Assembly: GCF_001660485.1 (NCBI RefSeq)
Contig: NZ_CP013979.1
Location: 3,348,001 to 3,412,000, forward strand
Direction: 5' to 3'
DNA length: 64,000 nt
Source of the DNA: Agromyces aureus
GTDB lineage: Bacteria; Actinomycetota; Actinomycetes; Actinomycetales; Microbacteriaceae
Positions 3,802-16,819 of this stretch are shown here, in pieces. Numbering within the stretch: position 1 is the first letter of the stretch; every line of letters begins with the position of its first letter. The translations under genes and the position numbers were made by a program. The notes beneath the pieces are model-generated. The model saw only the letters and a list, made by a program, of their open reading frames with translations. It did not search any database and had not been told where the DNA came from.

Positions 3802-5361
3802 TCAGCAGGTGGTGCCGTCGGAGGGCACGGTTCCGTCGATGAAGTACCGCTCGACGGCACCGGCGATGCAGTCGTTGGACTTGTTGTAGGCCGTGTGCCC
3901 TTCGCCCTCGTAGGTCACGAGCACGCCGCTGTCGAGCTGGTCGGCGAGCGAGACCGCCCAGGCGTAGGGCGTGGCCGGGTCGTTCGTCGTGCCGATGACG
4001 ACGATCGGCGCGGCGCCTTCTGCGGCGATCGGCGCCCGCTCGACGTTCGACGGGAACGGCCACGAGATGCAGCCCAGGTCGCCGTATCCGAAGTACGGGC
4101 CGATCACGGGGGCGGCTGCGGCGATCTCGGCGGCCTTCTCGCGCATGACGGCGACGTCGGACTGGTACGTGTAGTCGAGGCAGTTGATCGCGAGGAACGA
4201 CTCGGTCGAGTTGTCGTTGTAGGTGCCGTCGGCGTTGCGCCCGTAGTACGCGTCGGCGAACTGCAGCGCCGCATCGGCGTCGCCGAGCATGACCGCGTCG
4301 AGCATCTGGCTGAGATAGGGCCACGAGTCCGCACTGTAGAGCGGGTACACGATGGCCGTCACGAGCGTGTCGGCGCCGACCTCGCGTCCGTCGCTGCCCC
4401 GCATGGGGCTGGCATCGACCGAGGCCAGGAGCCGGCTGATCTCGTTCATCGCGGCGTCGACGCTGCCCGAGAACGGACAGTCGCCGCCTGCGAGGCAGTC
4501 GGCGAGGTAGGCGCGCAGCGCCGACTCGAACCCGACGGCCTGCTCGCGCGAGACATCCTCCTCCTGCGCGGCGGGGTCGACCGCGCCGTCGAGCACGAGT
4601 CGGCCGACCTTGTCGGGGAACAGCCCGGCGTAGGTGGCGCCGAGGAAGGTCCCGTACGAGTAGCCGAGGTAGTTCAGCTGGTCGTCGCCGAGCGCGGCGC
4701 GGAGCATGTCGAGGTCGCGGGCCGCGCTCTTCGTGTCGATCTCGCCGAGCAGGGCGCCCGTGTTCTCGCCGCACGCCGCACCGAAGTCGGCCTTGACCTT
4801 GCCGACGTTCTGGATCCACTCGTCGCTGCCACGTTCGCCGGGCACGATGTCGAAGAGGAAGGAGTCCATCTGGGCGGGGTCGTAGCAGGCGACGGCCGAC
4901 GAGCGTCCGACGCCGCGGGGGTCGAAGCCGATCACGTCGAAGTTCTGCTGCAGCGGCTCGCCGACGGCGTAGTCGAGCGAGTCCTTGACGAAGTCGTAGC
5001 CGGAGCCGCCAGGGCCGCCGGGGTTCACGAGCAGCGAGCCGATGCGCTCGCCCGTGGCCCTGTGCCGCACGAGCGCGAGCTCCACCTCGCCGTCGGCGGG
5101 CGACTCCCAGTCGAGCGGCGCCTTGGCCGTGGCGCAGTCGAACGCGCCGCCGCAGTTCTCCCACGCCAGCACCTGGCCGTAGAACGGCTGCAGGTCGGCC
5201 GCGACGTCTTCGCCGGTCGGCGTCGACTCCGAGGTCTGCGGCTTCAGGAACGACGGCACGCATCCCGTCATCACGAGCAGCGCCACGAGGGCTCCGGCGA
5301 CCGCCGCGATGCGGCCAGCTCGGCGGCGCGGGCGCCGCATCGGGTCGGATGTCACGGTCAT
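3802..5361 (-). CDS. Alpha/beta-hydrolase lipoprotein, tripeptidyl-aminopeptidase-like
   Basis: The 519-residue product begins with an Arg-rich region, a hydrophobic stretch and a lipobox-like LVMTGC with Cys34 as the likely lipidated residue, so it should be an extracellular lipoprotein. It has the oxyanion region NPGGPGGSG, FDPRGVGRS, the nucleophile elbow GYSYG and a C-terminal TAP-like part ending with the Asp/His segment NDPATP and GEGHTAYN. This is the architecture of the Streptomyces tripeptidyl aminopeptidase (SlpD/E, CaeA-like) group; peptide or ester hydrolysis is inferred. ATG 5361 overlaps the holB stop as ATGA, so it is translationally coupled and is the last gene of topA-tmk-holB. 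A longer in-frame reading upstream is only the antisense-like continuation through holB. Confidence 0.88.
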   Translation of the reverse strand: MTVTSDPMRRPRRRAGRIAAVAGALVALLVMTGCVPSFLKPQTSESTPTGEDVAADLQPFYGQVLAWENCGGAFDCATAKAPLDWESPADGEVELALVRHRATGERIGSLLVNPGGPGGSGYDFVKDSLDYAVGEPLQQNFDVIGFDPRGVGRSSAVACYDPAQMDSFLFDIVPGERGSDEWIQNVGKVKADFGAACGENTGALLGEIDTKSAARDLDMLRAALGDDQLNYLGYSYGTFLGATYAGLFPDKVGRLVLDGAVDPAAQEEDVSREQAVGFESALRAYLADCLAGGDCPFSGSVDAAMNEISRLLASVDASPMRGSDGREVGADTLVTAIVYPLYSADSWPYLSQMLDAVMLGDADAALQFADAYYGRNADGTYNDNSTESFLAINCLDYTYQSDVAVMREKAAEIAAAAPVIGPYFGYGDLGCISWPFPSNVERAPIAAEGAAPIVVIGTTNDPATPYAWAVSLADQLDSGVLVTYEGEGHTAYNKSNDCIAGAVERYFIDGTVPSDGTTC

Positions 5362-12181: not shown

Positions 12182-13246
12182 TCACGCGGCACCGCCGAGG
12201 GTGCCCGTGACCACCGAGATGAGGAGGGGCGCGACCCCGAGCAGCACGAACGCGGGCAGCACGCAGAGTCCGAGCGGGAGCATGAGGCGCACGCCGAGTG
12301 CCGCCCCGCGGGTCGCGGCATCGGTGCGCGCGATGCGCCGGCCGCGATGCGCCTCGGCACGCAGGAGTTCGACGAGTGGGGCGCCGGCCCGCTCGGCGAG
12401 GCGCACGATCTCGTCGAGGCGAGCGGATGCCGCGGCACGGCGCCGGCCGTCATCGGCGACTCCGTGGCCGGCGAGCCCGTGCTCGGCGAGCGCGGCGGCG
12501 ACCACCGCCCGCGCGCGCTCGACCGAGGCCCCGCCGGCCATGCCGATCGCGAGGAGCTCGAGTTCGAGTCCGGCACCCTCGTCGAAATCGGCCGCACGAG
12601 CGGCCAGCGCACGGCTCCAACGGAACGCGATCCAGAGGAACCCGAGCCCGAGCGCGAGGCACGCGATGCCGATCGGGTTGCCGAACAGCACGCCCGCCGT
12701 ATCGAAGCCGAGCACCGAACCGAACCCGAGTGCCACGAGCGGCAGGGCGAGCACCAGACGAGCGCTGGCGGCCGGCCCGGCGAGCGAGGTGCGCACCTCG
12801 CGCCGCACCTGCGCCTCGTCGCGCATCGCGCCGGCGAGGTCGCGCAGGCTCGTGGTGAGCGGCGCACCCGACTCGCTCGCGACCTGCCACGCGGCACCGA
12901 GCACCGCCCATCCGGCGGCCTCTGGTCGAACGACGACTCCGCCGCCCGACGCGGTGGTCGGAGCGGCGACGGTTGCGATGGCCGTCGCGACGGGCTCACC
13001 TCGCCCGCCGGCATCTGCGGCGGCGACGAGCACCGGATCGGCTTCGCCGGCTTCCGACAGGTGCCTCCAGGCCGTCGGTGCCGGGACGCCGGCCGAGAGC
13101 AGCACGGCGAGCCGCTCGACGACGCCGGCGACGTGATCGACGCCGGCCGCGGCATCCGGTGCTTTGCGGAGCATCGGCACGCGCGAGCGCACGAACGCGA
13201 TGGCGCGGCCGATCATGCCGGGGCCGGCCGTGCTGGAGCCGATCAT
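12182..13246 (-). CDS. Type II secretion F-domain protein (TadB/TadC-like inner-membrane platform)
   Basis: The 354-residue protein carries the GspF-type pattern: VERLAVLLSAGVPAPTAWRHL near residue 45, a first domain ending in two hydrophobic helices (around 170-215), then a second set of helices with LAIGMAGGASVERARAVV and a C-terminal membrane pair (PLGLCVLPAFVLLGVAPLLISVV). Many actinobacteria have separate TadB and TadC genes of 190-280 residues; here one protein of this length seems to do both jobs. It would anchor the pilus machine in the membrane and couple to the TadA ATPase, whose stop codon overlaps this ATG. Confidence 0.86.
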   Translation of the reverse strand: MIGSSTAGPGMIGRAIAFVRSRVPMLRKAPDAAAGVDHVAGVVERLAVLLSAGVPAPTAWRHLSEAGEADPVLVAAADAGGRGEPVATAIATVAAPTTASGGGVVVRPEAAGWAVLGAAWQVASESGAPLTTSLRDLAGAMRDEAQVRREVRTSLAGPAASARLVLALPLVALGFGSVLGFDTAGVLFGNPIGIACLALGLGFLWIAFRWSRALAARAADFDEGAGLELELLAIGMAGGASVERARAVVAAALAEHGLAGHGVADDGRRRAAASARLDEIVRLAERAGAPLVELLRAEAHRGRRIARTDAATRGAALGVRLMLPLGLCVLPAFVLLGVAPLLISVVTGTLGGAA

Positions 13247-14400
13247 GCCGGAGCCCCGACGGGCACCACCGAGAGCGCACCGTCGGTGAGTCTCAGCTCA
13301 CCGATGCCGGCGACGCGGCGCCGCCCGTCGACGCGTTCGAGATGCACCACGAGGTCGAACGCACTCGAAGCCTGCCGCGCGACGACCTCGGCTGAGAGCC
13401 CGGCCGTCGAGCCGAGGGCCTCGAGCCGCGCGACGACGTCATCGAGCGAGTTCGCGTGCAGCGTTCCGGCTCCGCCGTCGTGGCCGGTGTTCAGCGCCGA
13501 GAGCAGTTCGCGCAGCTCGGGGCCACGGCACTCGCCGACCACGAGCCGGTCGGGGCGCATGCGCAGAGCCTCGCGCAGGAGCGCGTCGAGCCCGATGCGG
13601 CCGGAGCCCTCGATGTTCGGCTGCCTGGCCTCGAGCGAGACCACGTGCGGGTGCACGACCTGCAGCTCGGCGACGTCTTCGATCACGACGATGCGGTCGG
13701 CGGCGGGCGCCTCGGCGAGCAGCGCGGAGAGGAGCGTGGTCTTGCCCGCGCCGCCGGCGCCCGTGATGAGCAGGTTCTTGCGCGCGCGCACGGCCTCGCG
13801 GAGCGTGCGTTCGTGGTCGCCCGCGATCATGCCCGTGCGAGCGAGCCCCTCGAGGCGCAACCCGGCTGCCCTCGGGATGCGGATCGAGAGCAGCGTGCCC
13901 GTGGTCGACACGGGCGGCAGCACGGCATGAACCCGGATGCCGCGGCCGAGCCGCACATCGACGGCGGGCGTCGCCTCGTCGATGTGCCGACCGCCGCGTG
14001 CGATGAGCCGCACGGCGAGCGCGCGCACCTCGGCCTCGTCGGCCTGCCAGGTCGGGTCGTGTTCGGGGCCGGCACCACGGTCGACCCAGAGTCCGGCCGA
14101 CCCGTTGACGAAGAGGTCCGTGACGTCAGCGATCGCGTAGCCGGCGAGCGGCCCGAGAGCCTCGAGGTCGTGGGTGATCGGCGGCAGAGAGATCGCCGGC
14201 ACAGAGGTCGGCATCGGCATCGGCATGACCGGAGCGCCGGTCGACGGCAGCGTCGGGCGGCCGACGGCGTCGGGGCGCTCACCGGATTCCGGCAGCGGCG
14301 GCAGGGGCCGCAGCGGCGCGAACGGCTGCAACGGCGGCAACAGCGCTGGCGGACGCGACGGCTCCCACGACGGGGTGGCGACGAACGGTGCGACGGGCAT
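13243..14400 (-). CDS. tadA: Tad pilus assembly ATPase TadA/CpaF
   Basis: The 385-residue secretion ATPase starts with a Pro-rich segment (residues 5-60), followed by an N-terminal domain (ITHDLEALGPL, then TDLFVNGSAGLWVDRG) and a RecA-like core: Walker A GAGGAGKTT, Asp box VIEDVAEL, Walker B-like RPDRLVVGECRG and the His box TGHDGGAGTLHANS. It powers pilin polymerisation from the cytoplasm. ATG 14400 is preferred: TAGCGT stands 7 nt before it, and longer readings run into the 6C RNA terminator region. The septum-site (TadZ-like) gene often placed before tadA is missing. It heads the operon tadA-tadBC-DUF4244-tadE-tadE-like. Confidence 0.92.
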   Translation of the reverse strand: MPVAPFVATPSWEPSRPPALLPPLQPFAPLRPLPPLPESGERPDAVGRPTLPSTGAPVMPMPMPTSVPAISLPPITHDLEALGPLAGYAIADVTDLFVNGSAGLWVDRGAGPEHDPTWQADEAEVRALAVRLIARGGRHIDEATPAVDVRLGRGIRVHAVLPPVSTTGTLLSIRIPRAAGLRLEGLARTGMIAGDHERTLREAVRARKNLLITGAGGAGKTTLLSALLAEAPAADRIVVIEDVAELQVVHPHVVSLEARQPNIEGSGRIGLDALLREALRMRPDRLVVGECRGPELRELLSALNTGHDGGAGTLHANSLDDVVARLEALGSTAGLSAEVVARQASSAFDLVVHLERVDGRRRVAGIGELRLTDGALSVVPVGAPA

Positions 14401-14407
14401 GACGCCG

Positions 14408-14413
14408 ACGCTA
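14408..14413 (-). promoter_or_regulatory. Leaderless -10 box of tadA
   Basis: TAGCGT lies 7 nt before ATG 14400 and downstream of the 6C RNA terminator hairpin, so tadA seems to have its own promoter. Confidence 0.5.
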
Positions 14414-14464
14414 CGATCCTCGGCGGCTCCGGCGGCATCCGCTCGACGGCAGATATGGAAAGAG

Positions 14465-14490
14465 CCTCCCCCACACCGTTGTGGAGGAGG
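14465..14490 (-). terminator. Hairpin ending the 6C RNA unit
   Basis: On the minus strand CCTCC-t-CCACA pairs with TGTGG-g-GGAGG around a 4-nt loop and is followed by CTCTTTCC. It separates the small RNA from the tadA promoter. Confidence 0.5.
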
Positions 14491-14522
14491 ACTCGATCGT
14501 GCAGTGCCACTCGCGAGCGGCA

Positions 14523-14633
14523 CCCCTTAACGAAAGGGGGCGGCACCCATTGGGGGGAACAGGTGCCGCCTCGGCAGCACAAGGATTGGGGGGAATCACG
14601 AGTGCTGCAGGCCACGAAAACGAAGTTCGGGCG
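14523..14633 (-). ncRNA. 6C small RNA
   Basis: Read on the minus strand, two hairpins each show CCCCCC in the loop within identical ATT/TTCCCCCCAAT contexts. The first stem is GCAGCAC/GTGCTGC (14602-14608 with 14574-14580) with the C6 run at 14588-14593. The second is a 9-bp stem (14562-14570 with 14539-14547) with C6 at 14552-14557. A third short stem CCCCTT/AAGGGG (14534-14539 with 14523-14528) follows. This two-hairpin, two-C6 layout defines the actinobacterial 6C RNA (B11 in mycobacteria), a regulator that can base-pair its C-rich loops with G-rich leaders. In Mycobacterium tuberculosis this RNA also lies upstream of the Tad-type locus. The 5' end is predicted from the promoter; the 3' end could extend to the hairpin at 14465. 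Confidence 0.88.
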
Positions 14634-14639
14634 GTACTC

Positions 14640-14667
14640 AGCATAGGGCCTGCGAATGCATTCGCAA
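14640..14667 (-). promoter_or_regulatory. 6C RNA promoter with perfect 16-bp palindrome
   Basis: TTGCGA (14662-14667) and TATGCT (14640-14645) are spaced 16 bp apart and would start RNA near 14633. The perfect palindrome TGCGAATGCATTCGCA (14651-14666) covers the -35 box and spacer, the expected place for a repressor. Confidence 0.6.
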
Positions 14668-14863
14668 GTACTTTTGTCCTCATTTGTGCGGACACACAGA
14701 TTTCTCTGCGCAAAGGCACAGTAACGCTCGGTTCCCTACAAGCCAAGACCCATCGACGCACATCGTCATGCGTGAGTCGTGGGTCCCCCACGCGGCGGGT
14801 AGGGTGCTCTTGGGGCAGGCGACCCACCGATGATCCATATCGCGAAGGAGCGACTGAAGAACC

Positions 14864-16819
<1,956 letters not shown>

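Follow-up and report, generated by a model that had tools for sequence, protein, structure and literature searches.

The region between tadA and acs of Agromyces aureus encodes a 6C RNA, a further member of a known small-RNA family. Most probably, this is a free-standing small RNA of about 107 nt which acts in trans and ends at its second hairpin, and the adjoining Tad operon is transcribed independently, from a promoter of its own that is probably leaderless and activator-driven. The operator between 6C and Tad seems somewhat likelier than otherwise to be part of a regulon of Actinomycetes that joins Tad pili, DNA uptake and recombination. The locus was analysed within a window, i.e. the whole 64,000-nt stretch of contig NZ_CP013979.1 (positions 3,348,001 to 3,412,000, forward strand), to which all coordinates refer. 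Structure, homology, covariation, neighbourhood and promoter architecture were read from the sequence. The RNA was divided as follows:

14527..14633, minus strand: predicted 6C RNA of about 107 nt, both ends predicted (start placed 7 nt past the -10 element; the U stretch taken as the 3' end).
14611..14632, minus strand: 5' stem-loop, outside the Rfam model (pairs of alignment A2, folds of single loci).
14574..14608, minus strand: hairpin 1, with a C6 loop at 14588-14593 (covariation).
14539..14570, minus strand: hairpin 2, with a C6 loop at 14552-14557, a likely terminator, followed by CCCCUUU (A2 pairing, C/U-rich tail of the family).

For assignment to the 6C family (RF01066), the window was searched with the Rfam covariance model, as the earlier note had proposed. 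All 75 model positions (1-75) were aligned at 14535-14611 with 38.7 bits (E 0.0012); the match was full length and its score did not reach the gathering cut-off of 47 bits, which is a rule of Rfam curation and no biological trait. A Rfam scan of the window at the gathering threshold returned tRNA only. Matches to RF01066 at E ≤1 were found in 98 of 150 family genomes; 5 of the 98 passed the cut-off and 93 failed, so that the cut-off misses most 6C members of the Microbacteriaceae-family set.

A lineage model (R1, 102 positions) was built from the 29 sequences of alignment A2. R1 matched the window at 14527-14627 (80.8 bits) and was found in 119 of the 150 family genomes, with one match each, and in 41 of 41 genomes of a genus search, again with one match each save for a weak second match in G553. 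When 40 class-wide 6C loci were searched, 24 were matched at E ≤0.1 (22 at full length). The number 119 is a lower bound, because two genomes without R1 match (G049 and G119, of one genus) still carry a diverged 6C with TCCCCC loops; the loci L072 and L079 still adjoin tadA and acs.

Family counts were made on 88 loci: the best 90 of 114 places, minus a spurious second match in G126 (L073) and a second C-loop element in G031 (L075). The latter (near 4070-4145) bears two TTCCCCCCAA stretches and is distant from tadA and acs. Alignment A1 contained 83 of the 88 family loci, and five (L014, L044, L055, L060 and L088), identical over the 6C match, were left out. RNAalifold on A1 gave 24 pairs, and in 19 of them both partners were altered in one or more sequences. 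In A2, double changes were found in 17 of 32 pairs and 93.5% of cells were paired (28-55% for slid versions, 86.7% for shuffles). Homology, structure and these compensatory changes identify the locus as a 6C RNA, which bears out the identity given in the earlier note; the stems are conserved in relatives.

The 5' stem-loop had double changes in 7 of 7 pairs and 83.3% of cells paired in A2, counts which are favourable to this helix, since A2 was picked partly for regular 5' hairpins. Double changes were present in 7 of 8 outer pairs of hairpin 1, and 97.1% of cells were paired over the 13 pairs of hairpin 2 (both A2). A C/U-rich tail is found 3' of hairpin 2 in most relatives (A1), and hairpin 2 is the likely terminator of the 6C RNA. 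At the window locus the U stretch is UUU only and, with just three U, read-through into tad would be possible.

Published accounts were used for comparison with known systems. The B11 (6C) RNA of mycobacteria shares three stem-loops, two C-rich loops with the last in the terminator, and a place beside Rv3660c (ssd) (PMC12395582, PMC10470900). Unlike B11, the window locus has two loops of exactly C6 in UUCCCCCCAAU and acs as direct divergent neighbour, and in the family tadA, instead of ssd, is usually directly next. The 6C RNA of C. glutamicum, about 100 nt by northern blot, also has a 27-nt 5' extension past the Rfam model (PMC4046766); it contains C8 stretches (a GlxR link is reported for it), whereas the window locus has C6. 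The predicted 5' stem-loop fits known biology because of this extension and the three stem-loops of B11, and a conserved third helix of 6C lies outside the Rfam model. Scr3202 of Streptomyces (RF02833) shares the C-rich loops and its model gave a weak match at the same place (21.5 bits, E 0.84, under the cut-off of 52), but the 6C model fits better.

Among named relatives, the tadB protein came closest to that of Agromyces allii (83% identity), in keeping with the genus. The neighbouring genes were identified by Pfam:

13243..14400, minus strand: tadA, with a T2SSE domain and a probable leaderless ATG at 14400 (Pfam, promoter position); the ORF as called begins at GTG 14523.
14864..16819, plus strand: acs, acetyl-CoA synthetase, divergent (Pfam).

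The placement between tadA and acs described in the earlier note was therefore confirmed, as was its view that the neighbourhood has been kept across a long evolutionary distance. Of the 88 family loci (from the best 90 of 114 places), 80 had a tadA homologue 3' of 6C in the same orientation, 81 had a divergent acs on the 5' side and 74 had both neighbours; some misses are due to short flanks or contig ends. Under looser rules, tadA and acs were each found at 81 of the best 90 of 114 places. A 6C match was found in 196 of 394 class genomes, and forty class-wide loci were chosen from these by hand so as to be widely spread: tadA was 3' of 6C in 37/40 and acs 5' in 16/40, within flanks of ≤8 kb. 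The family usually has tadA directly past 6C, and class-wide the first gene can be ssd, as in L157 (TIGR03815, 272.7 bits); in L124, the ORF ahead of tadA looks like ssd. In L136 (near 7957), the tadA homologue is found 5' of 6C and in the opposite orientation, as though 6C or its neighbours were inverted.

Weinberg's 2007 description of the 6C motif reportedly noted placement near partitioning and pilus genes, and for that reason the conserved neighbourhood is not claimed as new; a literature search for 6C near such genes found no account of it. B11 of M. tuberculosis is located at Rv3660-Rv3661 (PMC12395582). The link between 6C and Tad appears to be one of common place, which does not imply common transcription.

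Promoter elements of the Tad operon were predicted past the 6C terminator:

14480..14488, minus strand: tad promoter box 1, TCCTCCACA (promoter scan, congeners).
14453..14461, minus strand: degenerate box 2, TTTCCATAT, whose last 7 bases differ from TCCACAG at 2 positions (promoter scan).
14408..14413, minus strand: tadA -10 element TAGCGT, 39 nt past box 2 and 65 nt past box 1.
14465..14488, no strand assigned: hairpin or inverted repeat of box 1 and TGTGGGGGAGG (29/30 congeneric loci).

Congeneric loci were L163-L192, the 30 loci listed, from 30 of the 41 genus-search genomes. Box 1 (TCCTCCACA) was found in 28/30 of these listed loci and the box-1 hairpin, with a TGTGG-type arm, in 29/30; box 2 was matched better in L184 and L191. 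The motif YYVTCCACA was counted in the 200 nt past 6C. In the 40 class loci, there were 40 sites in 26 loci, a 45-fold enrichment over the rest of the loci (0.111/kb), with 39 on the 6C strand vs 1 on the other; in the family, there were 33 sites in 30 loci (12.6-fold), with 33 vs 0. The 200 nt ahead of 6C contained 0.12 and 0.29 sites/kb, and two altered control motifs showed no enrichment past 6C. The starts of neighbouring boxes were 16-20 or 26-31 nt apart in 17/19 pairs.

For scans, the tad promoter pattern was defined as box 1, box 2 at 25-30 nt, TANNNT 36-39 nt past box 2 and ATG/GTG 5-9 nt later. With ≤4 mismatches in the 14 box positions, the pattern was found in 46/88 family loci (from the best 90 of 114 places), 0/88 reversed zones and 9/500 random windows. 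A scan of both strands of the window (≤3 mismatches) gave a single hit: box 1, box 2, TAGCGT at 14408-14413 and ATG 14400. Among the listed congeneric loci, 21/30 fitted at ≤4 mismatches; their box 2 is degenerate for the most part. The tad -10 lay 85-368 nt past 6C in family loci. Class-wide, TANNNT was found 36-39 nt past a box in 0/30 box-bearing 6C zones, so at ssd/tad the exact promoter form is supported in the family only. The tad operon thus apparently has its own leaderless promoter past the 6C terminator, and the position of this promoter makes tadA a probable leaderless gene with a shorter frame than that beginning at 14523. Because tad has a separate promoter, 6C would lie beside the Tad operon without serving as its leader. 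Relative to the predicted tad start, the boxes are placed at roughly -50 and -80, positions fitting an activator. On this architecture, the tad boxes are probably bound by an activator.

DnaA has to be weighed here, because the tad-side boxes share TCCACA, the core of the DnaA box. The boxes past 6C would then be ordinary DnaA boxes, with DnaA controlling ssd/tad and the other box-bearing genes, a possible but doubtful reading. Some sites do read TTGTCCACA or TTATCCACA, and the box-bearing places include recA, ssb and a site on the oriC side; the tad-side boxes, however, differ in the flanking base from the dnaA-side sites of the same genomes, and they have a strict orientation (39 vs 1 and 33 vs 0) and a fixed distance to the -10 element. 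The base ahead of TCCACA in nine family genomes was A in 26/48 sites downstream of dnaA and C in 12/14 sites past 6C, and the counts in 21 class genomes were A 38, G 43, C 18, T 18 on the dnaA side vs A 5, G 29, C 3, T 1 past 6C, a rough comparison since the dnaA-side set was uncurated and included coding DNA. The different preceding base weakened plain DnaA boxes as a candidate, which nevertheless keep some probability.

Transcription, termination, action in trans and the activator are inferred. The TTGCGA/TATGCT promoter would drive minus-strand transcription of 6C, the transcript would fold into the 5' stem-loop and two C6-loop hairpins, and transcription would stop at hairpin 2, acting as terminator. 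By analogy with mycobacterial B11, the C6 loops would pair with G tracts close to the start codons of mRNAs encoded elsewhere and so reduce their translation, and action in trans through the C loops is the most likely mode. Either loop of M. abscessus B11 is reported to suffice on a G6 tract (PMC10470900), and M. marinum B11 has three stem-loops, of which the terminator loop acts on G tracts (PMC12395582). The Tad operon would be fired from its own promoter (boxes 14480-14488 and 14453-14461, -10 14408-14413, ATG 14400), and the tad activator would also act on DNA-uptake and recombination genes of related genera.

G-rich sites near start codons, which the earlier note had suggested scanning for, gave no signal. 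The ratio of G6 ahead of ATG to the reversed pattern was 2.15 in the 119 genomes with 6C vs 1.87 in the 31 without R1 match (p = 0.20), and GGGGGGAA ahead of ATG in three Agromyces genomes was found at 7 sites vs 7 controls. Genome-wide G-tract targets were set aside on these G6 and GGGGGGAA counts.

The 6C RNA could instead act in cis, as the leader of the tad operon, and govern read-through at hairpin 2. The Rfam type label of 6C is Cis-reg, ssd/tadA follows the RNA in the same orientation in 80/88 family loci (from the best 90 of 114 places) and 37/40 class loci, and the window locus has a weak U stretch. This is nevertheless improbable: a variable 85-368 nt and a separate promoter architecture lie between 6C and the tad -10, tadA is on the other side and strand in L136, and the homologue B11 is a 93-nt sRNA (PMC12395582). 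In the 15-300 nt past 6C, G6 tracts vs C6 tracts were found in 0 vs 1 of 40 class loci and 2 vs 2 of 87 family loci (from the best 90 of 114 places). The proposal that the C-rich loops control the pilus genes is, as put in the earlier note, unsupported, since tad has its own promoter past the terminator and G6 is no commoner than C6; action of 6C on tad in cis is made unlikely by the same two results. The class-wide persistence of 6C beside tad is unexplained by a purely trans role. Overall, the evidence favours 6C as a separate sRNA over a pilus-operon leader.

Upstream of the RNA, four elements were considered:

14662..14667, minus strand: 6C -35 element TTGCGA (sequence, congeners).
14640..14645, minus strand: 6C -10 element TATGCT, family form TACACT (sequence, family loci).
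14651..14666, no strand assigned: 16-bp palindrome TGCGAATGCATTCGCA, not conserved (congener comparison).
14676..14693, no strand assigned: GTCC-N10-GGAC inverted repeat, 5' of the -35 (genus conservation).

The promoter TTGCGA-N16-TATGCT and the perfect 16-bp palindrome over it are present as the earlier note had described them. The common family form of the promoter is TTGCG and GTACACT, and a TTGC...TANNNT promoter was kept in 30/30 listed congeneric loci. In the earlier note, a regulator binds the palindrome; seated over the -35, it would control 6C. The perfect palindrome does overlap the promoter in the window, its layout (TGCGA-N6-TCGCA) resembles a CRP-type site, and the copy in G142 is one mismatch off. 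Across the 30 listed congeneric loci, however, the arms had 0/8 mismatches in the window genome only, 1/8 in G142 and 3-6/8 in 28: the palindrome in the tadA-acs gap is intact in 1/30 and lost in 28/30, despite retention of the promoter in 30/30. Perfect palindromes of ≥16 bp numbered 8 in the window vs a mean of 4.6 in 30 simulations (first-order model), so the palindrome by itself is not beyond chance; the single further site resembling TGCGAATGCATTCGCA genome-wide had 2 mismatches, and the TTGCG half is accounted for by the -35. The palindrome was rejected as operator, for want of conservation in congeners and with a near-expected palindrome count, and such a regulator is very improbable.

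The inverted repeat GTCC-N10-GGAC had ≤2 of 18 mismatches in 29/30 listed congeneric loci. In the family, the exact form was present in 12/88 loci (from the best 90 of 114 places), whereas 50 shuffles averaged 0.5 and never exceeded 3, an excess which is not a probability because the loci are related; at ≤2 mismatches there was hardly any excess (65 vs 59). In the own genome the exact repeat stands once and versions with 3 mismatches twice, and no regulon of this repeat was seen there. The repeat could control 6C, acs or both, and may serve acs. A similar inverted repeat lies over the 6C -10 in other genera. The PafBC promoter motif is not known to resemble the 6C promoter. PafBC and 6C are named together in PMC6789036.

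The hairpins themselves were compared with chance expectation. The CCCCCC loops at 14588-14593 and 14552-14557, minus strand, both lie within the 11-mer TTCCCCCCAAT, in agreement with the shared 11-nt context that had been noted; TTCCCCCCAAT has 2 copies on the minus strand of the window and 0 on the plus strand (expected 0.0 per strand, 200 simulated windows). The fold of 14500-14640 reached -65 kcal/mol (z = -5.3) and 0/200 shuffles were equally stable, which places the two-hairpin structure far beyond chance. An origin as chance structures in GC-rich DNA, to which the Rfam score under the cut-off might point, deserves practically no credence and is ruled out by the covariation counts; many pairs carry double changes, and the orthologues are single-copy and occupy the same place.

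Beyond 6C, tandem boxes were searched in whole genomes. Tandem GTCCACAG-N(9-24)-TCCACAG sites were found in 25/30 class genomes (110 sites vs 10 for the reversed pattern, three of the 110 being one simple repeat in G264), and TCCACAG-N(8-24)-TCCACAG in 17/25 family genomes (88 vs 15 reversed), with 0 sites of the latter in the own genome and 0 in G142. Box spacing was near-constant per genome (33 nt in 6/7 sites of G177, 37-38 nt in 8/8 of G230). Downstream genes were assigned by Pfam scan at 80 of 93 sites from 12 genomes, the ORF being chosen by a fixed rule. In addition, NCBIfam was run on nine products of these sites and on the L157 Ssd, where the ComF-like, CpaB-like, SSB and YraN fragment scores were under the curated cut-offs.

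Four of the 80 sites were 6C/ssd sites. DNA-uptake, recombination or pilus-type genes followed 23 of the 76 non-6C sites: RecA (4), SSB (5), ribosomal S6 (2), ComM/YifB (5), YraN (2), ComF-like (2, one by phosphoribosyltransferase domain only), ComEA-like (1, HHH + SLBB), a CpaB-like SAF protein (1) and TadE (1). The ribosomal S6 gene is usually followed by ssb in an operon. Against the 23 found, 0.2 would be expected if such genes made up about 0.3% of the genome, a share that was estimated and not computed. The other 53/76 sites preceded other genes or ORFs without family (22), including housekeeping enzymes and probable miscalled frames. Genes recurring past tandem boxes (L321-L360, L391-L430) were DUF4192 (L349, L408) and restriction-like MTES_1575/DUF559 (L332, L418); DUF222 (L353) and a PD-(D/E)XK nuclease (L346) were also seen.

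TANNNT lay 36-39 nt past box 2 in 24/80 tandem sites, with just 5 such hexamers elsewhere in the 90 nt, and a start codon followed 5-8 nt later in 17/24 (random windows with such a pair anywhere: 0.9%). A tandem-box promoter type is well supported by these spacings and is not confined to DNA-uptake genes. The proposed regulon would be defined by two head-to-tail TCCACAG boxes at a genome-typical spacing with TAGNNT 36-39 nt on, often leaderless, ahead of ssd/tad, tadE, CpaB-like, comEA-like, comF-like, yraN/comM, ssb and recA genes. One activator would serve these promoters and 6C would be embedded in the layout class-wide; we consider this regulon rather more probable than not.

A literature search, which covered few subscription papers, found no description of the predicted Tad/DNA-uptake operator. 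The closest comparison is the competence of M. luteus, where a Flp/Tad pilus and com genes serve transformation (PMC4322843). Mutants of M. luteus map to the gene of a HTH_17 protein divergent from the RcpC/CpaB gene (PMC8467076), a locus with which the tandem boxes of the CpaB-like gene in G230 may be compared; a search for a helix-turn-helix gene divergent from the latter gave short, unconvincing frames only. In the passages available from the M. luteus papers, neither a common operator nor such a box motif is named (PMC8467076, PMC12849477, PMC4322843), and the competence regulon is called currently unknown in a 2026 paper (PMC12849477). A predicted operator common to Tad, com-type, recA and ssb genes makes the question of the M. 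luteus competence regulon directly testable.
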